In this document: positions 11,391 through 63,860 of the stretch, one piece after another
How positions within the stretch are numbered: position 1 is the first letter of the stretch
Layout of the letters: every line of letters begins with the position of its first letter
DNA from: Arctopsyche grandis
Taxonomy: Eukaryota > Arthropoda > Insecta > Trichoptera > Hydropsychidae
DNA length: 64,000 nucleotides
NCBI RefSeq assembly: GCF_051622035.1
Contig: NC_135360.1
Location: forward strand, 9,352,001-9,416,000
Direction of reading: 5' to 3'
Translations under genes and position numbers: made by a program
Notes under the pieces: model-generated
The model's database searches: none
Told to the model about the DNA's origin: nothing
What the model saw: only the letters and a program-made list of their open reading frames with translations

Positions 11391-12290
11391 CAGCAGCATG
11401 GCTCGGTGGTTGGGCTTTTGCCTAGCACCGAGAGGCGCCGGGCTCGATCCCGTGATTTGACCTCGATTGAAAAGAATTTATTCTGAGTATATTATCTGTA
11501 ATGCTGCCGGTCAGAATTGGATATTTGTGACTCCAAGTCGATCGTTTCCTATCAGAGTTTGCCTATCAGATTTCATTATTGAAACGGTTCCTCCATTAAA
11601 TTGGCTAAAAACCATCCTACCTACTTTGTCACAAATATTTTAGTATGATTTGTGTACAATAAAATTTATATACAAGTTTAAAATTCATAAATGTCTCGTT
11701 AATTTCGAGTTTTTCAATGTCTCGTAATTCAGCGAGCTATGTAATAAAAATGCTCCATTGTTTGTAATTGGCCAGGAAGGCGCATTGGGGTTTACCTGTT
11801 AAGAGGGCTGGACACCAGCGCCTTGTCCATAGAAACGTATTAGACTTCTCCCATCCTCAATTATGGCACTAGAGAAATTATTTTTTAATATGCTATGGAT
11901 ATCTACCATTGGGTTGCATCTATCGTTCTATTTTTTTGATTAGTTATTTTTTAAAGGAGCTAGGAGCTGCCAAACATCTATAAAATCGCCTCTTTTTTAC
12001 ACCCTCGAAAAGAGTCCAGCGTGCTTATTTAACGGTCGATTTAAAAAAAAATACGCGCATAGTTGCACAGAAAATATCTTTCTCATACTGATGATGAAAT
12101 TTTTTTAAAAATTGGTCCAGTTTTGGAGGAGAAAATAGGAGAATACGAAACCTCGATTTTGTCGATTTAAAATACGTATTATCTGGTCAAAGTGCAACTG
12201 TCGCATTCACTCAATATATATATCGAAGAAAGGAACGGCAACAAAATTAAGGTTTCGGGTGTACAGCCCTCTTAAGCCTTCCTGATATAT
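11391..12290 (+). mobile_element. tRNA-derived SINE (type I head), interrupted by a MITE
   Basis: The head has an A-box-like TGGCTCGGTGG (11399) and a B-box-like GGGCTCGATCCC (11440), as in pol III-transcribed tRNA-derived SINEs. A tRNA-unrelated core follows (GTCGATCGTTTCCTATCAGA near 11540, GAAACGGTTCC near 11580). The 3' tail begins CCAGGAAGGCGCATTGGGG (11772). Other copies end CCTGTTAAGCCTTCCTGGTAT; here the tail is split at its TTAA by the element at 11803..12271 and resumes at 12276 with GCCTTCCTG. Confidence 0.85.
11803..12271 (+). mobile_element. piggyBac-like MITE, copy 1, flanked by TTAA
   Basis: The termini are inverted: GAGGGCTGGACACC at the left, and GGTGTACAGCCCTC at the right. 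TTAA flanks both sides (11799..11802 and 12272..12275), and the SINE tail supplies one TTAA, so TTAA was the target. TTAA duplication is the hallmark of piggyBac-type transposition. At 469 bp it is non-autonomous. A decayed frame inside (TDDEIFLK, EEKIGEYETSILSI) is shared with the copy at 59705..60605 and may be a leftover of a parent gene. Confidence 0.85.
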
Positions 12291-13045
12291 ATGCATATAT
12301 GTATGTATGTAATAAGTATTTTTCCTTTGAATAAATTTGTAGATCTATTGTTAATCAATTCCATTATTAACTGATGATCGTCCTTTAAAATTATATCACT
12401 GAAGGATCGCCTATCTTCATAATTACCAAAGATTTCTTGAAAATGTACGATACCGTTGATGTCTGATTTTTTTTTTATAAATTTTATTTTTTCTCTAGAT
12501 CAATTTTTGCCCAGAAATCTGCCACTTCGGGCAGATGCCCGGCTTGCCCCCCTGTATTTGGCCCTGTTTATGTAACAGGAGGCCTCAGATTTAAGGTTTG
12601 GCAACTGGCCACACTTTAAACTTTTATACTGTGTGCGTGATTACAATATTTATTATGGCAAATTTGCAGATTTATGCAATGTCTTGTTACAAACAGCTCA
12701 CGCACCACTTTCCCCTACTGTTACTGAGCGTGTATGTCATTAGTGTTCACAGTCGAAAAATAAAAGTCAACGTGAAGGCATTTCTCTATTTAAAACTACT
12801 GTGAACTCACACACACACATAGGAATAGAGGCAAAAACTTTGCAAAACGCTTCTTTGAAAATCTTTTGGTCTCTAAAGTTTATTGATTTTATTTATTAGC
12901 CGTCTCGAAAGACTTCTTCCTACTACATATGAACCGAAATCAGCTATTGAATACGTAAACATACATATCACCATTTCATCCGACTCGTTACGAAACAGAA
13001 ACTGCATTGTGCAATAAAGTGGGTCGATTTTTTTACCCAAGTCGA
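12291..13045. other. Intergenic DNA, transposon debris
   Basis: A GC-richer segment at about 12510-12580 (CTGCCACTTCGGGCAGATGC, then GGCCCTGTTTATG) looks like the end of a degraded DNA transposon. The remainder is AT-rich. I see no gene. Confidence 0.4.
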
Positions 13046-13080
13046 CATAAAAGGTGGCCGAATGTTTGTAATGTCGTTAG
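13046..13080 (+). promoter_or_regulatory. Probable core promoter of the 13119 gene
   Basis: CATAAAAGG at 13046-13054 lies about 70 bp before the ATG, in the position expected for a TATA element. A transcript start near 13078 is inferred from spacing only. Confidence 0.45.
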
Positions 13081-13118
13081 AATGTATTGACACGTTCAAC
13101 TTCTGACAACAATTCAGC

Positions 13119-13873: not shown

Positions 13874-15150
13874 GGCTATTCATATTATATTTCTTGAAAT
13901 GTAATATGAAAATAATTGTGATACGTTTACCTATACATATGTACCTTTATCAATTTTTATATTTTTAATAATTTATAAGTAAGTCAAATAAATTATACAT
14001 TAGGAGTGTTGAAGACTTTTTTTACTTAAAGTTTGAAAATCGGTGGTTTTTTTTTTATTTAAATAAGTAATTTTTATTGGATATATCAAATTATGAATTT
14101 ATAAAATTGAATAAATACATTATATTAAGAAATACTTGACAAGCAGTAAGTAAATTTGAAATTTCACAATTCTTGTGAGGTGCAATTTGAGATAAAACAT
14201 CTAATTGCACATATCAATACCAAAGTAATGAAATAAAGTTTTATTTTCATGCTTATGATAAAATATATATGTATGTATCTATGTATTTATGTATGAAAAA
14301 TGTAAATACAAATCTGTTCACCTGTTAAATTGAACGATATGACATTTCCACAAGTAGAAGTAGCTAAATATTTGGGTATGCATCTGGAAAAACATACATA
14401 TCTGGACATAACGTAAGCAATTAAGTATTTAACTCAGGAAGCACTGCTGGATAATCGGAAAGAACTCAACACTTACCACGGATTACAAACTTTTAGTACA
14501 TATACATACATATTAGGGGTGACCGTGAAAAAGTCGAAAATATTCGTTTATCATGCATACATATGAAAAACGGTTATTATATGTGCCCATAATTATGAAA
14601 GTGTTCGATTGTGTAATTATGAAAAATAAGAGTTCTACATAAAAATATTTAAAAAAATATTAGTGTATAAAATTTATTATTTCTATTACATGTAAAAAAG
14701 TTTCAGTCTGATCAGTTGGACGGTTGAGGAGATAATTGAATTCAAAAAATTAAAAAAGAGGAGATTATTAAGGTCATATAGTACCACTTCCGGTCAACCT
14801 AAAAATTTGAAAAAACTTTATGTCGTATCGATAAGCAATTCAGTAACCGATACTACAAAAGTTTCAGTTTGATAGGACTTACGGTGTTCAAAAAATCCCC
14901 AAAATACACAGACTCACATATACTAACAAACACAAATAATGCTTTCTAGATAATGATAACGTGATCAGTGATTGATTCTGGGTTCGAATCAGTTGTAATC
15001 TCGAGTTAGAATTTTCGCATGATCGCAAAACTTCTACTATTGTTACTAAATAAATACGTATGTATGTACATATATTTATGCAGTTATGCAGTTATGTGTA
15101 TGCAGTTATGTGTATGTTTATATGCATATATCTATTTTCATTTATGCATA
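13874..15150. other. Intergenic, repeat-like, leading into a LINE
   Basis: This holds the 3' UTR and poly(A) signal of the previous gene, then AT-rich sequence. A segment at about 14960-15080 (GAATTTTCGCATGATCGCAA followed by AAACTTCT) is also found, diverged, near 56225-56280, so it is a dispersed repeat. Low-complexity CAGTTATG repeats follow at 15080-15120. Confidence 0.5.
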
Positions 15151-15201
15151 TGGATATTTATATTTATATCAGTACGTGCTCTATCTACTTCCTTTTTTAC
15201 A

Positions 15202-18054
15202 ATGTCTTCTAATCGTCTTGTCATTTATTATCAAAATGTCAGAGGTCTCCGAACTAAATCTGACTCTTTTCTTCAAAATGTATTAGTTAATAATTATGAT
15301 ATTATCTGTCTATCAGAAACTTGGCTAAATGACTCATTCAATAATAGTGAGTTTTTTGATGCCAGATATCAGGTGTTTCGACGTGACAGAGATTATTCTC
15401 TTCATAACCAAATATTTGGTGGTGGTGTAATCATAGCTGTGAAAAATAATCTACCCTCTGTCATTCAAAATAATTGGTTAACTTCCACAGAAGACCTTTG
15501 GATTACTATTACCACTAAATTTTTTAAACTAAATATCTGTACTGTCTATATTCCTCCTGGTAATTCTCACCAAACTCTATTAGTTACCCATTTAAATAAA
15601 GTATCTGATCTAATAACCAATTATCCAGAGGATCGATTCATTTTACTCGGTGATTACAATCTTCCCACTATTGATTGGACAAAATACGACTCAAATCTGC
15701 ATCTATTTCCTTCCAATTGTATTAATTTTTCTTCCCTTTCCTTTACTCAATTCTTATCTTATAATAAACTTTATCAATACAATTATTTGTCAAATACTAA
15801 TAATCGTATTCTTGACCTAGCTATTAGTAGTTTCCCCTTATATATTTCTCGTGCTGACTCTACGCTAATCCATGAAGATTCTCATCATTTATCCTTTTGC
15901 ATCTCAATAATTTACAACAAATCTTCACCCTTGAATTATAATTATAATAAAACTTTCCTCTTTAGAAAAGCTGACTATGCTACAATTATTCCAATTTTAA
16001 GCGATATCAATTGGAATTCACTTTTGTCCAATTTAAATATTGATTTAGCTTGTAAAAAATTTTACGATACCTTACAAAATATTATTGAATGCCACGTCCC
16101 TTTTACTCTTAAATCTAAGCGTACCAAATATCCCCCTTGGTTTACATCGTCTCTTATTAAAATAATAAAAGAAAAAAACAAATTCCATAAAAAATTTAAA
16201 ATTTATTCAAATCCCTTAGATTATCAAAGTTTTTCACTATTAAGAGCTCGAATTAAAAAATATTCTTTAATCTGCTTTAGAAATTATATTTCTCTTATTC
16301 AAAATAATATTAAAACTAATCCCAAATCATTTTGGTCATATATAAATTCAAAAAAAAATACCTCCTCTTCATATCCTTCCGTAATGTATTATGGAAATAA
16401 GTCGGCTTCACATGGTTCTGAAATCTGTACCATTTTTGCTGACTATTTTGACTCCACTTTCAATAGTGATTCTACCATTAACCTTTCTATCTCTAATACA
16501 GATACTTCTTCTTGTAACTTATCTACTTTTCATTTTGACTTATCTACTGTACTCAGTCACATCAACTCTCTCAATGTTAATCTTGGTGCGGGTTGTGATG
16601 GTTTGCCTTCTTTTTTCCTTGTTAAATGTGCTGTCCCATTATCTCTTCCCATAACAATCCTTTTCAATCTTTCTATGTCGAACGGTAAATTTCCTGACTA
16701 TTGGAAATTATCTTACATCACCCCTATTTTTAAAAAAGGTGATAAGAATCTTATTGAGAATTACCGTCCTATATCTAAACTATCTGTCATTAGTAAAATC
16801 TTTGAAAAAATTATCTATAATTTCCTTTTCTCCAATTTCAAAAACTACATTATACCTGAACAACATGGTTTTTTTAAGGGGAGATCGGTAGAGACTAACC
16901 TGCTTAATTTCACTAGTACTCTCACATCTTATATGGACAAACGAATCCAAATAGACGTCGTTTATACGGATTTCTCTAAAGCTTTTGATAAAATCAATCA
17001 CAACCTTTTACTCAATAAACTTTGGTCCCTTGGAATCCGAGGAAATTTATTTCGTTGGATCTCTTCGTATATACTAAATCGTCACCAAATCATAATTCTC
17101 AATGGTTTTAGATCATCACTTAGACATATTCCTTCCGGTGTCCCACAAGGGTCGCATTTAGGTCCCTTATTCTTTTTACTCTATATTAATGATATCTCAT
17201 ACATCTTCAAACATTCCTTTATACTTCTTTACGCTGATGATTTAAAAATTTACAAACCTATATACACCATAGACGATTGTCATAAGATACAAGAAGATCT
17301 AGATAGATTCTCTATATATTGTTTAAATAATGATCTTTTTATTAATCTAGAAAAATGCTCTATTTTAAATTTCACTAGAAATAAGTCAATTATTACTAAT
17401 CAATATCAATTAAATCATTCAATCCTTAACACGTCATCTTCTATTAAGGATCTTGGTGTAATACTCAATAATAAACTAGATTTCTCTGAACATATTTCTT
17501 TTATTACCAACAAAGCATTTAAATCTCTTGGATTCCTACTCCGCTCAACAAAACCCTTTAATGATCCTTATGTACTAAAATTACTTTATTTTTCCTTTGT
17601 AAGGTCTCACCTTGAATTTGCCTCAATTATCTGGTCACCTTTTTATTTATCCCATATTAATTGTATTGAGAAAGTTCAACTTAAATTTATTAAATCCTTA
17701 CGCTACCTTTTTCCTACCTATACCCATTCTACTGTTTCCGACATTTTAAAAATCCTTTCTTTTAACAATCTTTCTGTCAGGCGACGACATTCTGATGCTA
17801 TATTCTTCTTTAAGCTCATAAATGGTTTCCTTGATTGTTCTGATTTACTGAATAAGGTTAATTTCAGAATCCCAGTTCGATACCCTAGACGCGTTACACT
17901 CTTTTCACTTGATCCTTTCAATACTAATTCCCAAAAATATTTTTATCTGCAGCGCGTTTATCGTATGTTTAACGGAGAGCTGAATGAGGTTGATCTGTTT
18001 GGTATTTCCCTACATCAATTCAGGTCTAACATCAAGAGAATCTTGACCGATTGA
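15202..18054 (+). CDS. LINE ORF2: AP-type endonuclease plus reverse transcriptase
   Basis: This open frame of 950 residues starts at MSSNRLVIYYQNVRGLRTK; the frame is open further upstream, but only through low-complexity sequence. The N-terminal 220 residues or so are an endonuclease/exonuclease/phosphatase domain: YYQNVRG, CLSETWL, GGGVIIAV, LLGDYNLP and DSHHLSF. The central reverse transcriptase shows ITPIFKKGDK, NYRPIS, YTDFSKAFDKINH, SGVPQGSHLGP and the catalytic LLYADDLKIY. A C-terminal region follows (SHLEFASIIWSP, SVRRRHSDAIFFFKLING). Such enzymes nick the target DNA and copy the element RNA into it. There is no stop or frameshift, so it could still encode active enzyme. Jockey/CR1-type affiliation is inferred from the SGVPQGSHLGP and YADD context. 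Confidence 0.9.
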   Translation: MSSNRLVIYYQNVRGLRTKSDSFLQNVLVNNYDIICLSETWLNDSFNNSEFFDARYQVFRRDRDYSLHNQIFGGGVIIAVKNNLPSVIQNNWLTSTEDLWITITTKFFKLNICTVYIPPGNSHQTLLVTHLNKVSDLITNYPEDRFILLGDYNLPTIDWTKYDSNLHLFPSNCINFSSLSFTQFLSYNKLYQYNYLSNTNNRILDLAISSFPLYISRADSTLIHEDSHHLSFCISIIYNKSSPLNYNYNKTFLFRKADYATIIPILSDINWNSLLSNLNIDLACKKFYDTLQNIIECHVPFTLKSKRTKYPPWFTSSLIKIIKEKNKFHKKFKIYSNPLDYQSFSLLRARIKKYSLICFRNYISLIQNNIKTNPKSFWSYINSKKNTSSSYPSVMYYGNKSASHGSEICTIFADYFDSTFNSDSTINLSISNTDTSSCNLSTFHFDLSTVLSHINSLNVNLGAGCDGLPSFFLVKCAVPLSLPITILFNLSMSNGKFPDYWKLSYITPIFKKGDKNLIENYRPISKLSVISKIFEKIIYNFLFSNFKNYIIPEQHGFFKGRSVETNLLNFTSTLTSYMDKRIQIDVVYTDFSKAFDKINHNLLLNKLWSLGIRGNLFRWISSYILNRHQIIILNGFRSSLRHIPSGVPQGSHLGPLFFLLYINDISYIFKHSFILLYADDLKIYKPIYTIDDCHKIQEDLDRFSIYCLNNDLFINLEKCSILNFTRNKSIITNQYQLNHSILNTSSSIKDLGVILNNKLDFSEHISFITNKAFKSLGFLLRSTKPFNDPYVLKLLYFSFVRSHLEFASIIWSPFYLSHINCIEKVQLKFIKSLRYLFPTYTHSTVSDILKILSFNNLSVRRRHSDAIFFFKLINGFLDCSDLLNKVNFRIPVRYPRRVTLFSLDPFNTNSQKYFYLQRVYRMFNGELNEVDLFGISLHQFRSNIKRILTD

Positions 18055-18118
18055 TTCATTTTTTCTTCTATTCTATTTTTCCAATATTTCCATTATTTTT
18101 ATACTTTAGTTTAGTTAT

Positions 18119-20272
18119 AAAGACGTTAGTGTTTTAAGTAAAGTAGATATAGGTAGCGATCACAGATTAGTCCGTGCCAAGATGGCCATTAATATAAATT
18201 GCGAACGTAGGAAATTAATAAAAGGATGCAGTAACTCTCCAGATTTCGCTCAACTAAGGTCTAGGAAAAAGGAATTCGAACTCGAACTTGGAAATCGATA
18301 CGGGAAATTAAACCCAGAAGCAGACATCGAGGAATTGAACACTGTAATTAGTTCGGTTCTAACCTCAACAGGTAAGAAATTAGGTGGATTCAGGAAACAG
18401 ATTAAATTAAGCAAAATTTCAGCGGAAACAAAAAACCTAATTAAGCATAAAAGGAATTTAGATAGGGATAATAATAAGCAAGAATACAATCTAGTAAATA
18501 AGGAAATTAAGAAGAGAATAGTCAGGGATATCAGGGATTTTAATAGCAAGCTAATAGAAAATACCATTAAGAATAACCGTAGCCTGAAAAAGTGCAAACA
18601 GGATCTTTTCTTAGGCAAAAACCAAATGATCGCAATCAGATCAGAGAGCGGAGTAATAATTAGGAATAGAGAAGAAATCATAGACAGAGTTTACACGTTC
18701 TATGCAAAACTATACGAGAACGACAACGGCCAATTCCCCACTCTGGAATCGACACACGGCCAAAGGGTTCCTGCAGTATTGCCTAGCGAAGTAGAGGCCG
18801 CGCTAAAAACTGCAAAGAATGGTAAAACCCCAGGGGAAGATAATATTCCCATTGACTTACTAAAATGTGGCGGCCCCCCCCTAATTAATATCTTAGCTAG
18901 GCTTTTCAGCAAATGCATCCAGAACCAAGCTATACCAGAAGGATGGAATAACGCAACTATCATTTTAATACACAAAAAAGGCGACAAAAGCGATATCAAG
19001 AACTACCGACCCATTAGTCTACTTTCAGCGGTCTACAAGCTCTTCACGAAGGTTATTACAGAAAGGCTGAAGAATATCCTCGACGAGAACCAACCTATAG
19101 AGCAGGCAGGGTTTAGGGCAAATTTCAGCACAATGGACCACCTCCAAGTAGTTGGCGAACTAATCGAGCGCGCCAACGAATATCAACGGCCATTGTGCCT
19201 AGGTTTCGTCGATTATGAGAAAGCCTTCGATACAGTTAGTCATAATGCAGTACTTAACGCTCTAAAAACACAGGGAGTGCCGGAACCCTATGTGGGACTG
19301 TTAGCTGCAATATATAAGAATGCCACAGCTTCGGTTAAAATTTTTTCAGGTACAGATAGATTTAGCATAGGAAAAGGAGTAAGACAAGGAGATACAATCT
19401 CACCCAAGTTATTCAATGCGGTGCTTGAGGGAGTTTTCAGGAAATTGGATTGGGATACAGCCGGAGTAAGCATCAATGGTCGCTTTTTGAGTCACCTTCG
19501 GTTCGCAGACGATATAGTTTTAGTAGCTCGTGATTCAGCTGACCTACTTATCAGACTAACACAGCTGGATAGGGAAAGTAGAAAAGTAGGATTAAAAATT
19601 AACGTAGATAAGACTAAACTAATGTTCAATAGTTATTGCATGCCTGATAGCATCCCCTTAGATGATAAACCAGTAGAAGTAGTAAATAGTTATTTATATT
19701 TAGGTCAAATAATTGACATGTCTGGTAGTAAAAATGAAGAGATAAAGAGACGTATGAAATTAGGGTGGAGTGCATTTGGACGGATGAATGCTGTTTTTAA
19801 ATCAAAAATGCCACTCTGCCTGAAGAAAAGGATCTTTGATCAATGCGTTTTGCCAGTGATGACGTATGGATGTGAAACTTGGACACTGAACGCCAAGATG
19901 CAAAATAAAATCCAATGCACTCAAAGAAGTATGGAACGCTGTATGCTTGGCATAACGAGGAAAGACAGGAAGCGGAACACGTGGGTGAGAAATATGACAA
20001 GGGTAGTGGACATAGTGAATAGAGTGAAGAGATTGAAATGGCAATGGGCGGGTCACGTAGCTAGGAGGATGGACGACAGGTGGACAAAAGAAGTGCTTGA
20101 ATGGTACCCGAGAGAAGGCAAAAGAGTAAAAGGAAGACCGCAAGGAAGATGGGTGAACGAAATTAGGAAAATGTGCGGAATGAGATGGATGAGTGTTGCG
20201 CAAAACAGAGACGAGTGGAAGCGTGTTGGAGAGGCCTTCATCCAGCAGTGGATGGCGAATGGCTGTAAATGA
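18119..20272 (+). pseudogene. RTE-type reverse transcriptase (nuclease domain missing)
   Basis: The frame is open from the insertion edge and begins with the last part of an endonuclease domain (VDIGSDHRLVRAK), so most of the nuclease is absent. The first internal Met is at 18182, giving 696 residues. Reverse-transcriptase motifs are complete: ATIILIHKKGDKSDIKNYRP, FVDYEKAFDTVSH, GVRQGDTISPKLFN and the catalytic LRFADDIVLVA. The C-terminal region typical of RTE-like elements ends with KWQWAGHVARR and GRPQGRWVNEIRK. It cannot retrotranspose alone without the nuclease. Shorter remnants of the same 3' end occur at 34967-35340, 45518-45798 and about 51400-51640. Confidence 0.88.
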
Positions 20273-20285
20273 TGATGATGATGAT
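18119..20285 (+). mobile_element. 5'-truncated RTE-clade LINE nested in the jockey 3' UTR
   Basis: The left edge is fixed by comparison with the uninterrupted jockey 3' UTR at 59761..60155: TTTAGTTAT, then this element, then GTAATGTGC. It ends in (ATG/GAT)n repeats directly after its stop codon, a common RTE 3' end. The left end begins inside the nuclease domain, so insertion was by incomplete reverse transcription. No obvious long target duplication is present. Confidence 0.88.
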
Positions 20286-20672
20286 GTAATGTGCTATTTA
20301 ATCATATTATAGCTTTCATTCCTTTCCATTTCATTTGTTTATTTTGTATTTACCTTTTTCATTTGTTTTTTATATTTGTAAATTTCAATTTCTTCTTATA
20401 TTCTATCTTATAACCTTTTCCAAATATTTTAATACTATAGTTTAATTATGCAATGTACTACATATTTTGTCATGCCTTTATTCTTTACTTTTTAATTTGT
20501 TTTCCTTATATTTATCTTTTTCATTTTTGTAAAAATCTATTATTGGACTCGGGTGTTACATATATTATTTATTTACTTTTTGTGTTTTTTATACCTATCT
20601 CTGTACATCCTGTCTGTTGATTTTTCAATTAATAAAATAAAATAAAATAAAAAAATAAAATAAAATATATAT

Positions 20673-21300
20673 GTACCTATAGATAAAGTTTATTTTATTT
20701 TAAATGCTTTTTATTATTACGAAATTATGTTCACAATACATCTTATATCTATTTTAATAGCTACTGATCTACTGATCATTTTCTATTTTACAATTTAATT
20801 TAATTTGGTTAGTAATCACAGTATTATATTATTCTAATGTTAGTCTACAGCATAATAGAAAAAAGAGCTCAAAAACCTATTTACAAATAGATAAAGTAAA
20901 AATGTACCGAATGTCCTAAAAAGGACAGATAGAATCATCAATAAAAATAAAATATAAGAATAAAAAAAGTTAATCAAATATATGTATATGTATGTATGCA
21001 TATACTTAAAAAAAGTATGTATATATGCACATAAAAAATGTAAGAATAAGTTTAAAGGCAAGCACCCACAAGCTTTCCTTGACCAGCACAAAATTATGGA
21101 AAGAAATAAATTAAAAATTTTGAGCACATTATACGAAACCAGACATTTATTATTATTTTTTCAGTATTCATTATATATCAAGGCATACGACATCATTCAA
21201 AGCAATACATGATTTTGAAATATATGTATATATATATTAGCATACATATAAACTCTGCAACGATAACCAATGATTTTAATAATCACGTATATATTATACA
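20673..21300. other. Intergenic, contains a dispersed repeat
   Basis: A block at about 20741-20960 (AATAGCTACTGATCTACTGA, later CATAATAGAAAAAAGAGCTC) recurs diverged at about 46010-46150. The remainder is AT-rich with TATGTATG-type microsatellite. There is no convincing gene. Confidence 0.5.
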
Positions 21301-34320: not shown

Positions 34321-39984
<5,664 letters not shown>

Positions 39985-44094: not shown

Positions 44095-44109
44095 GTGTGT
44101 TCTGTTCTG

Positions 44110-44285
44110 TGCCTGTTCCTCTTGTTCTTGTTGTATCCTGCTCGCGCAAATTAAGTGAGTATGTACCGTTTACCATGCACCCTTTTTTTTTGATCTTTCG
44201 ACTTAAGATCTTTCGATTTTTGATCTTTGCCTTCCGATATTTGCGTTTTCGGTAATTTCACATTCCGGCCCGTCATGGAGACCGG
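44110..44285. repeat. Third copy of the palindrome arm unit
   Basis: It repeats the right-arm unit in the same orientation: TTGTATCCTGCTCGCGCAAA, GTGAGTATGTACCGTTTACC, then CGATCTTT-type motifs and CACATTCCGGCCCG. The opposite orientation appears at 63865-64000. Confidence 0.85.
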
Positions 44286-50572: not shown

Positions 50573-52265
50573 ATGATTACATTGCATACAATTAATTTAA
50601 TTATTTATACGATAAACGATTTATAAAATTCGAATATATATGTAAATATACGAGTATTTCCATATATTACAGAACTAAGAGCTTCTATCGTATTGAAAAC
50701 ATAAACATTATATTCTACAGTTATTGTATAATGCATCTGTATTATATCATGTTCAAAAATTATTTTTATATTGCATTCCCATTTAATAGGGTTGACACAT
50801 TTTCCCACATCAGCATGTATGTATATACACACATATATGAATGATCTGAATATTTCTATTATCATATTAGCTAACGGAAAGCCGGTCCATGTTGATCGGT
50901 TGACATGTTTACCCGGTACAAAGTAACTTGCCGAAAACGATACTTAATATAACTCCTATAAAGTTCTAGGTATAGATGTATGTATGAATGTATACTTTCC
51001 ACGTTCTTCGGAGCTTTCTTTTTTGCCATCATTGGCATCCATTATGAGGGGGAGCTCTGTGCAAACATTTAAAAAGGAGATTAACATCGTCGTCAACAAT
51101 GCGAACAGTATCAGATGGTATACAACCACTACTACCACGATGACAAGATGTTTTATTATCTAAGTATACGAACCGTTTTCTCGATTTATTTCAGTTGTAG
51201 GACACTTGTGGGGCGCGAATGTGTTGACCCTACACTTGGAACAAAGTAATCTCATCTTTGTGACTAGCAATAATACTGAAATTGGACTGAATAAGTAGGT
51301 CGAACTTATATGAACTATAGGAAATCGGTAATATATATACATATATATGAATTTAATAGACTCAGAGTAAGAGAAATTGAAATGTTACGATAGATCGTAC
51401 GTGAGATAGACACAGTACTGAAATGGTACCCAGGAGAATGTAGAAGGAAAGCAAGGTAAGGTGCAAGAGTGTTAAAGTAAAAAAAATGCATGGAGACATG
51501 TATGTATGTATATACATATGTACGTATAGAAGAGTGTATCCTAGTTAAGGACACTTCAATTATTCTTGTTATAGGATTCCTAAAGTAAGAATAATGGAAG
51601 TGTATTGGAAAGGCCTTCATCCATCATGAATAATATATATGCTATATGAAAACCTGCGATGTGTATTATTTAGTAACTACTTGGTTCAGATCAGACGCGG
51701 CTCGTGACATTAAAAACAGGTGGGGCACGAGAAAGCTAAATATACATATTTTTTTTCAAAAAAATTGACTTAATATATTTTTAGTGACTTTTTTAAAGCA
51801 AATTATCGCCTTCGTTAATTATGTGTTCTAAAAAAATGTGATTAATTAAAAATATTTAATGACAAAAATTAAAGAATTGACATATTTTGATTGACAATTT
51901 AAGAATACCTTGCAAAAAATAATTAAAATATCTAAAAAAAAAACGGTATCGTGTATTTTTCGAATCGTATGGAAAATATAAACGACCGTAGCTGGCGCTT
52001 TCTGCCCCAAAGAGACCTTTACGCAGCCAACTAAAAGCGACCCTTCGTATACGGAAATATGGATCTTTCTTTTCTGCCTCGACTGATTTTCTACACTCTA
52101 AATCGAATATTATTCGCAAGTGCCAAAGTAGCAGGAAAATCGAAGCTGGTGACCACGGGACCACAGCAGATAAACGACTGCCCCGAACTGAATTACGAAC
52201 CGGCCCAACTCACCGCATGGTGAGCGGGATAAAGTAACACTTATTTATTTATTTATTACATTTAA
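50573..52265. other. Intergenic; includes an RTE 3' remnant
   Basis: Between about 51400 and 51640 a decayed RTE end is visible (CTGAAATGGTACCCAGGAGA; GGAAAGGCCTTCATCCATCA). A sequence at 51695 (GACGCGGCTCGTGACATTAA) looks like a DNA-transposon terminus. There is no gene. Confidence 0.5.
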
Positions 52266-52637
52266 TACCAGGAAGGCCTTACAGGTAAACCCCAATGTGC
52301 CTTCATGGCCAAATACAAACAATGCAGCATTGTAATTACACAAGTCACTGAAATACGAGACACTGAAAAACTCGCAAATTAACGAGACATCTATGAATTG
52401 TACATTAATCATACTCAAATAGTGGTGACATAGTAGGTAGGAAGGTTTTTAGTCAATTTTAATCGAGAACCGTTTCAACAATGAAATCAGAGAAATTGGC
52501 AAACTCGGATAGGAAACGATCGACCTGGAGTCACAAATATCCAGGTCTGACCAGCAACACTACAGATATACTCATGGAATCGAACCCGGCGCCTCTCGGT
52601 GTTAGGCAGAAGCTTAACAACCGACGTATGCTGCTGG
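52266..52637 (-). mobile_element. tRNA-derived SINE, type I head, minus strand
   Basis: The complement of the 11391 SINE: tail ACCAGGAAGGCC at 52267, core GAAACGATCGACC near 52505, B-box complement ATCGAACCCGGCGCC near 52578 and head end CATACGTCGG near 52620. It is nearly full length. Confidence 0.85.
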
Positions 52638-53240: not shown

Positions 53241-53660
53241 CAGCAGCGTGGTCTAGTGGTGAATGTTGAATTATTTCATACTTGATGTTACGAGTTCGAT
53301 TCCCCGCTAAGTCTCGTTGTTGGCCAGACCTTGATTTGTCTGGGTCGATCGTTTCTTATCAGAATTTGCCGATTTTTCTGATTTTCATTGAAACGATTCC
53401 TGTAAAATTGGCGTTTCCTTCCCAATTTTCTGTTTCGCCATATTGCTCACCATAGATGTCTCTGTGGTTGTTTATCGAATATAAAATTCGTATTGTTACA
53501 TGAAAGTTATTCATCGTTATTTATCGTATTGATACGATGTTTGTAATATATGTATACTGACCATAGATGTCAGATAGTTAGATTTACATGTATCTATATA
53601 ATAATTATGTGGACCAGGAAGGCGCATTTGGGTTTTACCTGTTAAGCCTTCCTGGTATAT
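53241..53660 (+). mobile_element. tRNA-derived SINE, type II head
   Basis: Head A-box-like TGGTCTAGTGGT (53249) and B-box-like GAGTTCGATTCCCC (53292), resembling Asp/Glu/Gly-type tRNAs. The core GTCGATCGTTTCTTATCAGA and GAAACGATTCC is shared with type I. The tail CCAGGAAGGCGCATTTGGG to GCCTTCCTGGTAT forms a hairpin. Confidence 0.88.
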
Positions 53661-54829
53661 TTGTATATATGTACATATGTGAAAATATGTATGTAAAAAT
53701 AAAAATAAATAAATATATAGTTCTACATATGTCAAAACATGTATAGCAGCATTTCGTATTTATGTACAATGATGCACAAATAATGCAATCGTCTTTCGCA
53801 CACTTGCATACAAAATCGAATGATTTGGCAAATGTCGACCGAAAGAGTCGCTTGTTTTATTCAAGATGGCGTTTCTTTCCCGGCCTAAGGAAGTTTATAA
53901 GAATTTCAAATATTGCGTTGTCGCACTTGACTAACCCTGCTTTGCATACTTTTACGTCCGGGGTTTGGATGTCCGCAAATACGATTGTACGTCGGGGAAG
54001 AAGAATAAGATAAAAAAAAGTAGAGCGAAAAGAAAAAAAAAATAGGCAGAGAGAGGAGGAAGGGACGCGCGGCCTTCATAAAGAGAGGCTTCAGTTTTTG
54101 TTCATTTCTCTGGATGGGAGACGAAATTTTCCGACCTTGAGGCGAAGGAAAACGTCGAAAATTAAATATTTTCCAACCACTCCACTCCCCCCCCCCTTCC
54201 TTTCATCTCTTCCCCTCGTCGAGTCGTTGAATCTCGTCGAATCGCGGTTTCCCTTCACCCCTTTTCACAATTAACGTTGATTCTGTTTCATAAATGCAAT
54301 TTATTAAATGGTTACCCTCTTTTCCCCGCTTTTCACCCTCTCGTTTGGTGTAAAGTGAACCAAGTTTAATTCAATGAAATGTTTTCTTTTGGTTAACTTC
54401 GGGATGTAGATTGAAAGACGGTCGTTTGCTCTCGCGTTGTTGAATCTGATGGTCGCATTGAAAGTCTGATGGATAACATCAACGACACGAAATTCAAAGC
54501 AAAATAGGGTAAACGTACCAATGAACGACATCTTAGCGGAAGAATATTTTTGAAAACAGCAATTTTTCCAGTCATTTCATTACTTTATATAGAGTAAAGC
54601 AATAACTGTTCATGTCTTCAACTTTTGACATGCAAAATTACAGGCCATAATGGAAATGAAAATAAAAGAATTGCCGTTTTACAAAGATTCATCTATTCCA
54701 TCGCCATCACCATAGTCTTGTATATTTGTTTTACATAAATCATTATCATTATGACAAAATTTGACTCATTTTTCTCATAGCTTTGACGCAACACCGCGTA
54801 GATTAATTTGTTCTAAAGGTTTAAAATTC
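53661..54829. other. Intergenic; GC-richer block 53780-54330
   Basis: This block is non-repetitive and contains purine- and pyrimidine-rich tracts (54020-54060; 54180-54230). No frame looks like a protein. It could be regulatory or an untranslated exon. Confidence 0.35.
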
Positions 54830-55341: not shown

Positions 55342-55911
55342 CCAGCAGTATGGCTCGGTGGTTGTGTTTATGTTAAGCACCGAGAGGTTACCGGGTTCAA
55401 TCCCGTGCTAATATTTAATACTGCTGGTCAGACTTGAATATCTGTGACTCCAAGTCGATCGTTTCCTATAACTAGAGGTAGGATAGTCACAGTGCTATCC
55501 ATTGTTCCATCGTTGTAAATCCTTTGTAAAAAAGGTTCGGCAAACCTTTGACAATGCATTTACAACCTTTGAACAATACGCGGCACCTTCTGGGTCCGGT
55601 GACTACCTATAACAGTTTACCAATTCATCTGATTTCATTGTTGAAACGGTTCCTCCATCAAATTGGCAAAAACCATCCTACCCACTATGTCACCAATATC
55701 TGAATTTGATTTATGTGCATTATGTAAAAAAATAAGTACAAGTCTAAATCCATAGATGTGTCTATTGATTAATTCATTAATTAATTAATAGTTAATTTCT
55801 TGTTCCTTAGCATCCCGAAATTCAGCAATTCGTGTAATAAAAAATGCTGCAATGTTTGTAATTGGCTAGAAAGGCGCATTGCGGTTTACCTGTTAGGCAT
55901 TCCTTGTATAT
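55342..55911 (+). mobile_element. tRNA-derived SINE, type I head, interrupted
   Basis: Head TATGGCTCGGTGGTTG, B-box-like GGGTTCAATCCC (55393), core split by the insertion at 55473..55605, and a degraded tail (AGAAAGGCGCATTGCGG). Confidence 0.85.
55473..55605. mobile_element. Small DNA element inside a SINE, 8-bp target duplication
   Basis: Both flanks read CCTATAAC (55465..55472 and 55606..55613). The 133-bp insert starts TAGAGGTAGGATAGTCAC and ends CCGGTGACTA, with TAGTCAC/GTGACTA in inverted arrangement. An internal hairpin surrounds AAGGTTCGGCAAACCTTT. Removing the insert and one flank restores the SINE core. A hAT-type origin is inferred from the 8-bp duplication. Confidence 0.88.
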
Positions 55912-58057
55912 ATCTATGTAAATAAATAAATCTCACTATTGATTCCAATACTCACTTTTGGCACCGAATTATAGACTGCAAAAGCCAAAAATTGCGCTTT
56001 TTTTTAAACGTATATCTAATATATAATTTCGAAAGAGACTTTGTATATATGTAAGTTTTGTTTCGTAGAATCCGTGATGTTATCGAACAAATCAAAATTT
56101 CCATGACTGAATTTTCATGTTGAATATATTTTTTACATACCTCCTTTACGTTTCACTTACGATTAAAATTCAGAGGACTTTTTACCTCTTAAAGATTGTT
56201 TAGTTTCCGCACCGATAAGAAAACGAGTTCGAATTTTTGCATGATCACAAAACTTCATATATTGTTAATACGTACGTACATAGATAAAGTAAAAAAAGAA
56301 AATGGGTGCTTTTTTTGTTGCTCATTGTTATAATTAATATAAATAATTATTTTCAACGACGAGTATTTTAACCGAGCGATAAATAATTTTATATAGATAT
56401 AATTCAATATATGTACGTACATATGTTTTATTCAAAAGTATTAGAAATCAGTCACTCAAAAGTGAGGTGAGCATTAAGAATCGGCATACAATAGTAATGT
56501 GCGTGTAATTATTATTGCTACGGTTGTACAAATTAGGGGTCGTTAATTCGTCACAGATATCTCTTTTACACGCACACAATGGAAGATGGATGGATGCTGT
56601 GCGTCGTTATAACGACGATAAATAACACGTTGAGCGCCGTATCATTTTAATTAGTGATTTGTCAACTAATTGGTGACAGCTCGCGGCGTTCTGAAAACAT
56701 AATTAATTGTTTGTAAACATTGAAAGTCGAGATTCGCTCTAATAAACATATGTACACCCTTCTGCTACATATTAATGACGGAATAGACATATATCATCCG
56801 ACATTTATAACATCTCGTCAACTATAGTCAACAGCTCGGCACAACACTACACGGAAAAGACGTTTTCTATTCATACTATACAGCACCGCCTGTTTTCGGC
56901 ACGTTCATACTTGTTTTGGAGTAGTGCAAGGTTAAATCGACTTAAAAAACATACATTACAGGGTCGAGTCAATATTGTCACAATGTGAGGTTTGCGAAAA
57001 TAGTCATATGTATACTTTCGTTCGTTTGGGTGCAATTATGACGTCACGTCATGCGTAAAAATTTCTACAGAGGTCAAAGAAAGCCGGTTCTGCTTGATAT
57101 GTAAGTTTCGGTGGCATGTGCTGCTGTATAATGTTTATTTTCATTTATTCATTTAACATATGTATGTACTTAGGGGAGGTGGAATTTATTATTTAAAAAT
57201 ATCTCATTTGATTTCATTTGACAGTGGGAAGAAAAATATGCGACACCTATTGGTCAGCTAAGATTTTATGACTTTTGGAGATTCGCCAGTGCCAGAACCC
57301 ATCAACAAATAAGAATTGAGATCCTAAGTCTTCCTACCGCTAAGCCAATTAAAAACGGAGTATAGATTTTAGCAGATTTAAAAAAAAACGAAGTAAAAAC
57401 GATTCTTTTTCACAAATGCAAAGATAATCATATCCACGTGCGTAATATTTTAAATTAGCAAAAAAAAAAAAAACTGAAATTCACATGCTTATTTTCAAAA
57501 TCTTTTCACTTTATCAGTTCAGTTTTCACTTTTTCAGTTTCAATTAGATTGTTCAAAAGATTCATGTCGGAACAGTTGTCAAAATCATGTGGGTTTTTAT
57601 CATTATCATGTGGGTTGAATCTATGTTCCAAAAAGCTATATACGAAATCTTTGAATAATCAGCGAGTGCTAATTAGAAAGTTAATGTTGAATAAATTGTA
57701 CTTGGTTACCGTGTCGATACATTTTTTTCCAACAAAAATAAAGATAAAAAAACGAGATAGTTTAAAGGTAAAAACATACTAAATCATACAGCACGGACAA
57801 GTTTTTGGCCTCCTGTGGTGAAAAAGCATGTCTCACACCACAGGGGTTTTTTTCGACAAGTTTCTCCCACATTTCCTCAATTATGGTAAATACTGTATAG
57901 CCTATGTTAATACAAGAATTTACACAGCTTAGATATGATGTGCTAGCGTTTTTTTTTACATCTATAAACTATTAAAAAAAAAAGGAAACAGGTGCCGTGC
58001 ACCTCTCTGTGTGTCTGCGCCATAAAAAGTGTCTTCGCACGAGACTTGTTTTTAAAC
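55912..58057. other. Intergenic, mixed
   Basis: A CCCGG-head family fragment (inverted end CTAATATATAATTTCGAAAG, 56014-56170) comes first. The stretch 56450-57120 is free of recognised repeats and holds several homeodomain-type TAATTA/TAATTG sites (56650-56710). No gene was recognised. Confidence 0.4.
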
Positions 58058-58500
58058 CAGCAGCGTGGTCTAGTGGTGAATATTGAATTATTTCGTACTT
58101 GAGTTCGATTCCCGCCAAGTCTTCCTGTTGGACAGACCTTGATTTGTCTAGGTCGATCGTTTCTTATCAGAATTTGCCAATTTTTCTGATTTTCATTGAA
58201 ACGATTCCTGTAAAATTGGCGTTTCCTTCCCAATTTTCTGTTGCGAACCTTTAGTTATTGTTATATCTTAGGTTTCGCCATATTTCTCACCATAGATGTC
58301 TCTGTGATTGTTTATCGAATATAAAATTCGTATTGTTACATGAAAGTTATTCATCGTTATTTATCGTATTAATACGATGTTTGTAATATATACTGACCAT
58401 AGATGTCAGATATTGTTTAGATTTACATGTATCTATATAATAATTATGTGGACCAGGAAGGCGCATTTGGGGTTTACCTGTTAAGTCTTCCTGGTATATT
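58058..58500 (+). mobile_element. tRNA-derived SINE, type II head, full length
   Basis: CAGCAGCGTGGTCTAGTGGT head, GAGTTCGATTCCCGCC B-box region, shared core, CACCATAGATGTCTCTGTG body, hairpin tail, then an A-rich (AAATAAAT) end. Confidence 0.9.
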
Positions 58501-58594
58501 TGTAAAATAAAAAATAAATAAATTAACGTATATTGATGACCAAAATGAGCAATATGGCAAAGTATGAAAACGATCGGATAAGAGATATTAATAC

Positions 58595-58730
58595 GATGTT
58601 TTTAATGTATACTGACCATAGATGTCGGATATTGTTTAGATTTACATGTATCTATGTAATAATTATGTGGACCAGGAAGGCACATTTGGGGTTTACCTGT
58701 TAAGTCTTTCTGGTATATTTGTAAAATAAA
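58595..58730 (+). mobile_element. 5'-truncated SINE type II tail
   Basis: It repeats only the last 130 bp of the preceding SINE (TGACCATAGATGTCGG to GTCTTTCTGGTAT) with its own (AAAAT)n tail, as expected for truncated reverse transcription. Confidence 0.85.
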
Positions 58731-59452
58731 AATAAAAATAAAAATAAATACGATCAACTTTATAATTGGATATTTGCAACCGGAAAATTTCAACTCAATC
58801 CACTTGCCCCAATGTAAACAATCAGCCGAGCTCGAAAGATGTATCTTACAATCAAAAAGTGGACAGTTGTAGTTGATCAAAGAAGACTCGTAAACACGCC
58901 GATAGTAAAAAGCAAAGCAGGTGAAAGAGAGGGGGGCGCCAGGTGTTCAGCGAAGGGGGGGCAAAGGCGCCCTTGAAACTTTCCATCGTCAGATAGGTGA
59001 AGTCGGCAGTACGTGAAAATTAGAGGGCGAGGGGGGCTGTCGGGGGCGCGAGCGGGGATCGATATGAGGACGCGGCCGGGCGGAGCCTGCGGGGGCGCAA
59101 GCCACCCCCTCTGTACATCGGACACCCTATCGATCCTCGAGGAAAAAAAAACAAATAAAAAATAAAAGGGGCGAAAAAATAAAACCGCAAACAAAATATA
59201 AATAAATAAATAAATAAAAATGATTGCAGCGATAAGTGCGGCTCTGTCCCGGGCTCCCGGTAACTCGATACACAAAGGTCAGGCGAACCGCATGAATTGA
59301 TAATGAGGAGCTCGTGCCCGACCTTGCCGCTAACGCGACGTGCTTTATTCCAGAACTTATATTTCCTTATGTATGAGTTCATGTTTTTCTATGTACATAT
59401 GTATGTGTACTTGCATAGGATTCGGTATGGGAATATATATACATATGTATGT
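58731..59452. other. GC-rich island 58880-59340
   Basis: It contains G-rich runs on the plus strand (GAGAGGGGGGCGCC, GCGGCCGGGCGGAGCC). No conserved protein was recognised in any frame. A promoter or untranslated exon is possible. Confidence 0.35.
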
Positions 59453-59704: not shown

Positions 59705-60605
59705 GAGGGCTGTACACCTGAAATCTTAATTTTGTTGCCGTTCCTTTCTTCGATATATATTTTTTTATTTTATTTATTGAAAAATCAATAGACATCAGGA
59801 TGTTGATATGTATAAAAAACAAATAGTAAATATATAATATATGTAACATCCGAGTCCAATGCCAGATTTTTACAAAGATTATAAAAAAAATGAAAAAGAT
59901 AAATATAAGGAAAACAAATGAAAAAGAAAAGAATAAAGGCTATAACATGACAAAATAGAACATTGCATAATTAAACTATAATATTAAAATATTGGAAAAA
60001 GGTTATAAAATAGAATATAAGAAGAAATTGAAATTTACAAATATAAAACAAATGAAAAAGGTAAATACAAAATAAACAAATGAAAAGGAAAAGAATGAAA
60101 GCTATAACATGATTAAATAGCACATTACATAACTAAACTAAAGTATAAAAATATTGAATGAATGTATATGTTGAGTGAATGCGACAATATATATCAATAT
60201 ATATATTGAGTGAATGCGACATTTGCGCTTCCACCAGATAATACGTATTTAAAATCGACAAAATCGAGGTTTCATATTCTCCTATTTTATCCTCCAAAAA
60301 TGGATCTATTTTTAAAAAAATTTCATCATCGGTATGAGAAAGATATTTTCTGTGCAACTATCGGCGTATTTTTATTTTTTTAAGCACGCTGGACTCTTTT
60401 CGTGGGTGTAAAAAAGAGGCGATTTTATAGATGTTTGGCGGCTCCTAGCTCCTATAAAAAATAATTAATCAAAAAAATAAAACGATAGATGCACTCCAAT
60501 GGTGGATATCCATAGCATATTAAAAAATAATTTCTCTGGTGCCATAATTGAGGAAGGGAGAAGTATAGTACCTTTGTATGGACAAGGCGCTAGTGTCCAG
60601 ACCTC
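59705..60605 (-). mobile_element. piggyBac-like MITE, copy 2, carrying a LINE insert
   Basis: TTAA flanks both ends (59701..59704 and 60606..60609). Inverted ends GAGGGCTGTACACC and GTGTCCAGACCTC match the MITE at 11803..12271, to which it is inverted. A jockey 3' fragment occupies 59761..60155. Confidence 0.85.
59761..60155 (-). mobile_element. Jockey-type LINE 3' end fragment
   Basis: This is the reverse complement of the 3' UTR and (AATAA)n tail of the LINE at 15151..20672, without the RTE insertion: TTTAGTTATGTAATGTGCTA is contiguous here. It is severely 5' truncated. Confidence 0.88.
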
Positions 60606-60957
60606 TTAATAAACAAATTAAATTACAGTAATGAGAATTTGTCGGAAAAATGCAGGCGGCGAATAACCGTGTCGTCAGGCGACGAAAGCTGTGTCGTCAT
60701 AAACCAACTGGTAACGTGGTTAACAACGAACACATTTCCTCGACTACACAATGGCGCTTCAAACTTTCGCATCGGTAAAATCGTAATTACGAATATTATT
60801 ATTGAGAGGTTTTTTCTCGTTTTTTTTTCACAGAAAGCTTCCCGGATATGCATACAACAAATCCTGAAAGTTTCATCGTAATCGGTTAAGTGGCTTAGGA
60901 GCCCTATACGAGACAGACATACAAACAGATATTAATTTTTATATCTATAGATAAACA

Positions 60958-61085
60958 TCCACAGAGACATATATGGAGAGAAACCTGAGATATAACACAA
61001 TAATTCCAGATTTCCAGATTTCGCCAGAGAAATGGGGAGGGAAAGCCAATTTTGCAGGAATCGTTTCAATAAAAATCCGAAAAAT
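60958..61085 (-). mobile_element. SINE type II body fragment
   Basis: The complement reads GAAACGATTCCTGCAAAATT, then GGCTTTCCCTCC and GGTTTCTCTCCATATATGTC, as in the SINE at 63122. Confidence 0.75.
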
Positions 61086-61244: not shown

Positions 61245-61457
61245 CAGCGGTTTCCAAACTGGGAGGCGCGGACTATTGCCAGGGGAGGCTGGCAATAGTC
61301 CGTCTATCTATTGTAGCCTCAGTATCTTTTTTTAAATAAAGGTTTATTATTTCAAACGTTTCTATATTATTATATCTATAGAAAAATAAAAAGTAGGGAG
61401 GTGAGGAAAATAAATTGTTTTAGGGAGGCATAGTAGCATAAAGTTTGGAAACCGCTG
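61245..61457. mobile_element. hAT-type MITE, 213 bp
   Basis: The terminal inverted repeats are CAGCGGTTTCCAAACT at the left and AGTTTGGAAACCGCTG at the right. The flanks, GTATATAT and GTATAAAT, are an 8-bp duplication with one mismatch. An internal hairpin GGACTATTGCC/GGCAATAGTCC is present. CAGCGGTTTCCAAACT-type ends are common in hAT MITEs. Confidence 0.9.
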
Positions 61458-62739
61458 GTATAAATATAAGTTTTTTTATTTTGTTATTGTATTGTATATA
61501 CGTTTTGGCAGTGGCTTAGCTGTGACGTACATATGTACATACATACATATATCAAATCGAAACGACTATTATAGTACGGCGAGCGTTATCTCAAACAGAC
61601 AGACACACAGACAGAATAGCGATATTATATATACATATGTATATATATGATATGATGTTACCTATTGGAAAACTTGCGTCGTATCAAGGAAACGTTAAAT
61701 AAAATATATGTATAGTTGATTTTAAGCAATGTCCTATGCCTCCAACTAATCGATTTGTCACGACGAAAAATTCGAAAAAGTGGGTTTAGCATATATGTAT
61801 CTACTTTTTTAGAATATTTTCGATTTTTTTATTATTTAAAAATAAATAAACGCTCAATGTTTACCTATAAAAATTTATCTGGGTCGATTATGATAAGTTT
61901 TGACTGATTAATGAAAGTCCAAAGTCGCTGTTTTGCCCCGAAAGTCCCCGTACAAAACACGCCGCGCTCGCAATAGGTGTTTGTATGGGGAAGCGTTATT
62001 TTCAGAAAATAGTCATTTTTACAGCAGCTCGTAATAATTACTCGATATGTGCGCAATATGTTTTTATTCTATTTTATATGACGATTAAATATTGGGTATA
62101 TTGAAGCCTTACCACGTATCGCCATGCGGAAAAGTTTTGATTTGAAATCAGACTGTAATATGAGTTGTTGTGATATGTAGTAGATGTATGTATATTTAGG
62201 TAAGTATATTTTTTTACATTCTTGGAAATAGTCATTTATTCTAAAGATCAAGGTTAACGAGCAAAAGTTTTTGAATGGCTTGCCGTAGCGATGGATTCTA
62301 AGAAGAAGACGGCCCTCGTAATACGTATCTAATAATTCTGATTTTATAGCTCAGCATGGAAAAGTTTTTCCGAGAAATTGTGTCGAGACATTTAATTTCC
62401 TGTAAGAGCGGTAATAATATACATGTATAAAAAGCTTTTTGATTTTTAAATGTACACACAAACATATTTTCATATACAATAATATATTAAGTCACCTGTA
62501 CTTTGATCTTTGAATAAGTGCATTACATGATATCTTTGTATATGTATGTATGTACATATGTACATTCATATATATGTACGTAAATACGAGTGTTCCAAAG
62601 CTGAAACGTTTTGATACTCTGAATCAGGGTAAAACAATGATTTGTGAGTGTCTCTACATATGTATATAATTAAAAATATTGTATGATTACTTTTTCAAAA
62701 CTACGTACTATTTTTTGATTATAAAAATAAATCAGCACG
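61458..62739. other. Intergenic, AT-rich
   Basis: A dispersed repeat at about 61550-61635 (inverse of 47275-47400) comes first. The rest has TATGTATG microsatellite and no gene. Confidence 0.45.
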
Positions 62740-63060
62740 TCAGCAGTATAGCCGGCAGTATAGCACGGTGCTTGCGTTAATGCTAACCATCAAGTTTAAG
62801 CCCTGAGTTGACCTGATCAAAATATGTACACATTTTTCTATTTCATCCACACCAGCAGTATATATCAGCGGTAATCATATATCAGTCACATATCCATGGC
62901 CCGGTGCTGCTGGCCAGACCATGGATATGTGACTCCGGGTCGATCGTTTCCTATCAACATTTGCCAATGTATCTGATTTCATTGTTGAAATGGTTCCTTA
63001 TATAATTGGCAAAAGCCATCCTACCCATTATGTCACCACAATTTGAATATGATTTCAAAT
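62740..63060 (+). mobile_element. Diverged SINE, type I-like
   Basis: Degraded head (GTATAGCACGGTGCTTGCG), core GGGTCGATCGTTTCCTATCA and TGATTTCATTGTTGAAATGG, body CATCCTACCCATTATGTCAC. It holds a 13-bp perfect inverted repeat, CACATATCCATGG/CCATGGATATGTG. Confidence 0.75.
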
Positions 63061-63121
63061 TTATATATGGACAATTTTGATATTATAAATGTCGCTCAGG
63101 GCATCATGTGATAATATAAAA

Positions 63122-63860
63122 CGGCAGCATGGACTAGTGATTAGCATGTCTTGCTATGGTCAGTGTGGTTGTAAGTTCGAGTGACATTGGTTGCTACTGA
63201 CCAGACCTTGGTTTGTAACCAGGTCGGTCGTTTCTTATCAGAGTTTGACAATTTTTATGATTTTCATTGTAACGATTCCTGCAAAATTGGCTTTCCCTCC
63301 TCATTTCTCTTGCGAAATCTTGAATTATTGTGTTATCTCAGGTTTCTCTCCATATATATCTATAGATATAAATTTGAATGTCTGTCTCGTATAGGCTCCT
63401 AAACCACTTAATTTAACATTCCGATTACGATGGAATATTCAGGATTTAATGTATGTATGTCCGGGAAGCTTACTGTAAAAAAACAACGGGAAAAAACCTC
63501 TTAATAATAATATTCGTTATTACGATTTTACCGACGCGAAATTTTGAAGTGCCATTGTGTAGGCAAAGAAATGTGTTCGTTGGTAACCACGTTACCAGTT
63601 GGTTTATGACGACACGGCGTTGAAGAGATATTAAAACCATCACTTGAAACGGGAAAGGGATTCGCTTCCCTTTTTCTGACATTGCAACGCATGCCGGACT
63701 CAGTTAGTTATATAAAAATTCATATTGTTACATGAAAATGTTATTGGACGCGTATTGTATATGATGTTTAGTGATCGTATTGTATACGATGTTTGCAATG
63801 TTTGACCATAGATGTCATGTATGTTTTCGATTTGTGTAATAAGTATGTATTAAATCGGTC
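63122..63860 (+). mobile_element. SINE type II, interrupted
   Basis: Head GGCAGCATGGACTAGTGATT, core GGTCGTTTCTTATCAGAGTT, body to about 63354. After the insert at 63355..63712 the SINE resumes with ATTCATATTGTTACATGAAA and GACCATAGATGTCATG. The tail hairpin is missing. Confidence 0.8.
63355..63712 (-). mobile_element. ACTAGCTGAAC-head repeat element, short copy
   Basis: This is the reverse complement of 59593..60955 without the MITE. It begins TCTATAGATATAAATTTGAA with GTCTGTCTCGTATAGGCTCC and ends GCAACGCATGCCGGACTCAG then TTAGTTA. Confidence 0.75.

Follow-up and report, generated by a model that had tools for sequence, protein, structure and literature searches.

SINE copies in the window

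The stretch of DNA analysed here (64 kb, 33% G+C; hereafter the window) carries a family of short interspersed elements (SINEs), and for all counts given below the family means its copies in this one window. Profiles of the core, of the tail and of both element types were run over the window and located 11 insertions, seven with a core, one with a partial core (x61, 61085, minus strand) and three tail-only pieces (one at 58586 and two within 35126-35239). The core-bearing copies start at 11391 (I_a), 52637 on the minus strand (I_b), 55342 (I_c), 62746 (x62), 53241 (II_a), 58059 (II_b) and 63122 (II_c), and the insertions are laid out as follows.

11391..12311 (plus strand): type I copy I_a; head 11391-11502, core 11503-11606, then body, tail 11770-11802 and 12272-12289, the tail interrupted by a TTAA-flanked element
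35126..35239: two tail-only pieces placed tail-to-tail, 35126-35178 (plus) and 35178-35239 (minus), within a decayed LINE-like (long interspersed element-like) reading frame
52242..52637 (minus strand): type I copy I_b; core 52451-52557, tail hairpin 52265-52310
53241..53700 (plus strand): type II copy II_a; A box 53249, B box 53293, core 53317-53412, tail hairpin 53612-53659
55342..55931 (plus strand): type I copy I_c; split core 55421-55472 and 55606-55667, tail 55864-55910
58059..58525 (plus strand): type II copy II_b; A box 58066, B box 58102, core 58125-58220, tail hairpin 58451-58498
58586..58742 (plus strand): 5'-truncated type II copy; the final ~157 nt including the hairpin, with an A-rich end
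60934..61085 (minus strand): 5'-truncated type II-like copy x61; end of the core and body, continuing into an insert also found in II_c
62746..63115 (plus strand): old type I-like copy x62; core 62906-63010, head decayed and with an insert, without tail
63122..63860 (plus strand): type II-like copy II_c; third head, core 63193-63291, body broken at about 63365-63713, without tail

These 11 insertions are short dispersed copies with a common 3' end and a simple-repeat tail, as is characteristic of a tRNA-derived SINE. The initial annotation had distinguished two types with different heads and middle bodies around a shared core and 3' hairpin, and had placed type I heads at 11391, 52266 (minus strand) and 55342 and type II heads at 53241, 58058 and 63122; the type I-like copy at 62746-63115 had been missed.

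Shared core and tail, differing bodies

The core measures about 100 bp in the seven copies that have it. Its 20-mer GTCGATCGTTTCYTATCAGA, allowing up to three mismatches, occurs at seven sites (11537, 53344, 55454, 58152, 62939 and 63223 on the plus strand, 52505-52524 on the minus strand), exactly at three of them. A GAAACGRTTCC-like site (up to one mismatch), which had been described as lying 25-30 bp after this motif, follows 24-28 nt later in six of the seven copies; at 55454 (I_c) a 141-bp insertion has moved it to a distance of 169 nt.

Segments of I_a, I_b and I_c were compared with those of II_a, II_b and II_c, each comparison set against 500 dinucleotide shuffles, with x62 and the partial copies left out. 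No shuffle equalled the core in any of the nine type I by type II pairs (0/500 in 9/9, z 13-19), and the core consensus sequences of the two types differ at 15 of 97 aligned sites. The same holds for the tails (0/500 in 6/6 pairs, z 12.8-16.3), II_c having none. The bodies, by comparison, rise above their shuffles in 0/9 pairs. The claims of a common core, a common tail hairpin and unlike bodies thus stand, and the finding that would have overturned them, a core and tail alignable no better than chance, was not made. A core common to SINEs that differ in head or body is also a mark of the superfamilies built on a highly conserved SINE domain.

Tails are present in five of the seven core-bearing copies (those at 11391, 52266 on the minus strand, 53241, 55342 and 58058) and stand alone in three pieces (58586-58742 and the two in 35126-35239). 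Four tails were folded, leaving out I_a, I_c and the 35-kb pieces; the hairpin has 11 bp in three of the four and is interrupted in I_b (z -4.0, -3.8, -2.7 and -1.95), with a loop of ~22 nt. The 3' end consists of this hairpin, CATTGGGGTTTACCTGTTA and AAATA-type repeats, and repeats of AAATA/AAAT type are clear behind six of eight tails, the exceptions being I_a and the minus-strand 35-kb piece. The 5'-truncated copies have the same 3' end as the full copies, which fits target-primed reverse transcription.

Core and body were also compared for their rates of decay, in few copies and in pairs that are not independent. Among the type I copies I_a, I_b and I_c the core differs by 12-18% and the body by 13-22% (Fisher p 0.58, 0.047 and 0.74), and three pairs involving x62 show no significant difference between core and body (p 0.25, 0.72 and 0.11). 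II_a and II_b differ from each other by 5% in the core and 2% in the body (p 0.16), and from II_c by 13-14% in the core and 28-29% in the body (p 0.011 and 0.0036). Such a pattern, from so few non-independent pairs, would fit active source elements under constraint and inserted copies decaying neutrally. A core that is kept between source lineages yet decays like the body among the few type I copies would point to a role in the spread of the element itself and not to one in the host.

Heads, promoter boxes and closing helix

When head interiors are compared from box to box they can be aligned within type I (3/3 pairs, 0/500) and between II_a and II_b (0/500). Between the types the best of nine pairs reaches only 24/500, and the interior of II_c is at chance level against both II_a (240/500) and II_b (407/500). 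Interiors that align within type I and within II_a/II_b, but neither across the types nor with II_c, leave two heads well supported and make a third, that of II_c, likely, as far as can be judged from alignment. The type I heads of the initial annotation accordingly hold together, although the A box of the copy at 52266 (minus strand) is a decayed type I form, TACGTCGGTTG. The type II heads at 53241 and 58058 belong together as described; that at 63122 has boxes of its own (TGGACTAGTGA and AGTTCGAGTGA), an interior that aligns convincingly with none, and no tail.

It is possible, if doubtful in our judgement, that II_c is a one-off chimera or carries a decayed type II head and that only two heads are real: this third head was found once, its boxes are decayed and the copy carries a nested insert. 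Its interior from box to box is nonetheless 32 nt long, as in II_a, and the 5' arm CGGCAGC is in place, which indicates that a complete head is present.

Both boxes of II_a and II_b (TGGTCTAGTGG and AGTTCGATTCC) match exactly the A and B box consensus TRGYNNARNNG / RGTTCRANTCC quoted in PMC9191728. A scan for box pairs ranked II_b and II_a as the top two of the window, with a score of 17, and none that good appeared in 10 simulated windows. The internal RNA polymerase III (Pol III) promoter at the 5' end that typifies a tRNA-derived SINE is thus seen here in II_a and II_b.

Outside the interior, the types have the first ~8 nt of the element, CCAGCAGC, in common, and these base-pair with GCTGCTGG where the core begins. 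With the register of this helix (P1) chosen by us from landmarks, the first 10 nt of the element pair with the 10 nt leading into the core at 9, 10, 10, 9, 8 and 7 of 10 positions in I_a, I_b, I_c, II_a, II_b and II_c, respectively. The site is the sole place in the element that pairs so well in four of the six copies; II_b has 4 such places and II_c 14, this one included. I_c carries a double change from C-G to T-A in the helix. This pairing of shared 5' nucleotides with the core places the variable head within a closing helix. We read P1 as an acceptor-like stem around a variable interior, the shared part of the element being 5' arm, core and tail.

Nested insertions and neighbouring features

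Three of the seven core-bearing copies (I_a, I_c and II_c) are interrupted. Two of the inserts can be delimited as elements separate from the SINE.

11799..12275 (no strand assigned): nested element in the tail loop of I_a; 473 bp, 18-nt inverted ends that include TTAA, TTAA on both sides
55473..55613 (no strand assigned): insert in the core of I_c; 141 bp, 8-bp direct repeat CCTATAAC at 55465 and 55606

The tail of I_a resumes at 12272 beyond the nested element, which we take to be a miniature inverted-repeat transposable element of piggyBac-like type; a second copy of it lies at 60190-60609 (minus strand). The body of II_c holds an insert of ~350 bp (63365-63713), and a similar insert at about 60685-60952 (minus strand) is joined to a type II-like body at the same point. 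This shared junction in two type II-like copies suggests either that an insert-carrying SINE was amplified or that a local duplication occurred. A repeated sequence with adjoining direct and inverted copies, found at 43601-44296 and 63844-63944, also borders the broken 3' end of II_c.

Elsewhere in the window, an acetylcholinesterase-like open frame of 718 codons occupies 35696-37852 (minus strand), and its residues 233-718 match acetylcholinesterases in the PDB (best 5ydj, E 1.7e-257); the best entries are mosquito enzymes. Other frames include one with JHBP and group 7 allergen matches, one with a SET domain and two for reverse transcriptase. With its acetylcholinesterase-like, JHBP/allergen, SET and reverse-transcriptase frames the DNA looks like that of an insect. 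A low-complexity frame at 24529-26118 (plus strand) has internal repeats of 99 bp and 60 bp and matches no Pfam family at E up to 0.001. Directly past a LINE frame at 15010-18054 lies sequence whose relative is found beyond a second LINE frame (18110-20272), and the arrangement across 15010-20700 suggests that one LINE was inserted in the other. Rfam returned no match over the whole window at gathering scores; matches below threshold to microRNA, snoRNA, riboswitch and sRNA families in three sub-regions were taken as chance, the best being mir-1277 (27.2 bits where the cut-off is 81, E 0.0065), which falls in AT-repeat sequence.

Discussion

A shared core and tail combined with unalignable bodies and head interiors fits the exchange of modules around a conserved domain. 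We put at roughly 0.7 the probability that the copies are one SINE family with tRNA-type promoters, spread by a LINE that recognises the 3' hairpin, whose heads have been exchanged between source lineages. The head replacement proposed in the initial annotation would in this form be retained with two amendments: the border is not simply that of head and core, the first ~8-10 nt being shared and pairing with the core start, and the heads are probably three.

How such a family might work can be sketched as follows. Pol III, acting through the A and B boxes in the head, would make a transcript of ~370-440 nt that reaches the end of the hairpin. The first ~8-10 nt of this RNA would base-pair with the beginning of the core, leaving the head enclosed between the two strands. 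The transcript would end in the hairpin followed by AAATA/AAAT-type repeats; the reverse transcriptase of a LINE would recognise the hairpin and copy the RNA into new sites, early stops giving rise to the tail-only copies. Source lineages would retain core, tail and 5' arm while the head interior (in two versions, probably three) and the body were replaced, conceivably by template switching between SINE RNAs or by recombination.

A number of observations weigh against this reading, and they are gathered in this and the following three paragraphs. When whole heads are compared, 5' arm and boxes included, three of the nine type I by type II pairs do nominally rise above their shuffles (0/500, 3/500 and 11/500), helped by the shared first nucleotides and boxes, so that one head may simply have diverged deeply. 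Together with the 5' arm common to both types, this favours the view that types I and II are old, strongly diverged subfamilies of one SINE in which no module was ever exchanged, the interior and body having changed rapidly and selection for retroposition having preserved core, tail and boxes; the 15 differences over 97 core sites would have allowed time enough for such divergence. Yet type I interiors remain alignable (3/3, 0/500) at a core difference of 12-18%, whereas those of II_a and II_b against II_c are at chance at 13-14%, and all nine body comparisons are at chance as well. We consider simple divergence unlikely.

The promoter of type I is less clear than that of type II. The box pairs of I_a and I_c score 15, with one or two mismatches per box, a score seen 9 times against 3.2 expected, so that these pairs are not significant alone; I_b, II_c and x62 (62746) fail the box-pair scan, and a box pair at 28115, outside the SINE family, reaches 16, a level at or above which 0.1 pairs are expected per window. 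Nor do the heads score as tRNA: ARAGORN finds none at default settings and, when relaxed, calls two to four of six heads along with 98 hits across the window, and in the three regions tried the Rfam tRNA model matches nothing at E up to 5. A possible likeness between head I and tRNA-Ala(AGC), and between head II and tRNA-Glu, was set aside, as neither ARAGORN nor Rfam supports a tRNA. Boxes that match while tRNA programs stay silent establish a promoter of tRNA type, and from them we infer a tRNA origin of the heads. Alternatively, the elements might be SIDEs, short internally deleted LINEs composed of LINE 5' and 3' ends, whose tRNA-like boxes arose by chance; such CR1-derived elements have been reported in Lepidoptera (PMC6740152), and the failure of the heads to score as tRNA is in keeping with such an origin. 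We regard it as highly improbable, given that the boxes of II_a and II_b are exact, have tRNA-like spacing, were unmatched in the simulations and sit at the 5' end as in SINEs.

The LINE partner that the one-family reading calls for was also looked for in the window, where no LINE bears the SINE tail and the tail profile finds no further tail at E up to 1. Neither of two candidates qualifies: the LINE frame at 18110-20272, like its relatives at 35 and 45.7 kb, gives way to TGATGA-type repeats and lacks the SINE tail, and the 3' untranslated region-like sequence at 20273-20700, which has a relative at 59756-60130, finishes in AAAAT repeats and has no hairpin. Target-site duplications, on which the proposed mechanism is weakest, are suggestive in one of five copies (I_a, 10 of 11 bp, p about 0.003 in 300 shuffles); the match that gives II_b its p of 0.03 falls inside the neighbouring copy.

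The core, finally, can be drawn with a helix CGTTTC/GAAACG that encloses ATCAGA/TCTGAT, and with a hairpin GACC(T)/(A)GGTC, in which 89.8% of cells are paired, compared with 27-46% when the pattern is slid, and its RNAalifold energy is -13.1 as against -3.9 +/- 2.2 in column shuffles (0/300). Both sides have changed, however, in only one of 21 pairs, and letter shuffles pair equally well (139/500; covariation score 25/500), so sequence conservation may explain the pairing. For this reason we dropped the structure as proof of RNA function, and the core may possibly be a folded RNA domain with some function as RNA.

A bolder suggestion, which we offer tentatively and think unlikely, is that these elements represent a SINE superfamily with a conserved domain beyond those described, in which the swapped unit is the promoter-bearing head interior between the strands of the closing helix CCAGCAGC / GCTGCTGG, and 5' arm, core and tail form one RNA scaffold that has taken at least three promoter cassettes. 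Why some SINE domains persist while other modules swap is an open question, and the enclosing helix hints at where cassettes can be exchanged.

Comparison with known systems

Exact core patterns and tail patterns were each absent (0 hits) from the viral and the prokaryote genome contigs searched. A bare palindrome pattern occurred in four viral contigs, against which blastn of ten window pieces gave no match at E up to 0.01, the hairpin in one of them (L001) being a G+C-rich repeat. Pieces of core and tail, sought as text in the literature apart from supplements, figures and subscription journals, turned up only as one 13-mer in three unrelated papers, which says little because consensus sequences are mostly given in figures and supplements; no domain sequence was found in passages of PMC11121367 and PMC6327564.

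Close parallels exist in insects. HaSE1, HaSE2 and HaSE3 of Helicoverpa armigera (PMC3272025) are, like the present family, insect SINEs in which a central domain, or body plus tail, is held in common and a further module has been swapped; HaSE3, which joins a 5S rRNA head to the HaSE1 body and tail, provides an insect precedent for module exchange. The HaSE elements likewise have 5'-truncated copies, and the 3' end of HaSE1 is related to a LINE (PMC3272025). Compared by description only, their tail finishes with TGA repeats that an RTE LINE also has, whereas ours ends in a hairpin and AAATA-type repeats. In Plutella xylostella, too, central domains are common to SINEs of one species (PxSE1/PxSE2 and PxSE4/PxSE5), with bodies that according to the authors differ from known domains (PMC8010984). 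PxSE1 and PxSE2 are almost identical in the head and differ at the 3' end (PMC8010984), whereas in the present family, again by description only, the tail is shared and the head interiors differ.

As to the tail, the stringent L2-type LINEs ZfL2-1 and ZfL2-2 of zebrafish carry a 3' stem-loop that is required for retrotransposition and whose recognition is set by the loop more than by the stem (PMC4176376); the present SINE tail is also a hairpin, as judged from its sequence alone. The named conserved SINE domains V, CORE, Deu, Nin, Ceph, Inv, Pln, Snail and Meta (PMC8010984, PMC6887750) each recur, as does the core described here, in SINEs whose other modules differ (the V domain being ~120 bp long); those domains are shared across distant taxa, whereas the present one is known from one window and is likened to them by description only. 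Tail exchange, module exchange and host benefit have been proposed to account for such domains (PMC6887750). The plan of promoter head, shared domain, LINE-like tail and exchanged modules is thus already known, and the family described here, set beside the named domains by description only, is a further example of it.

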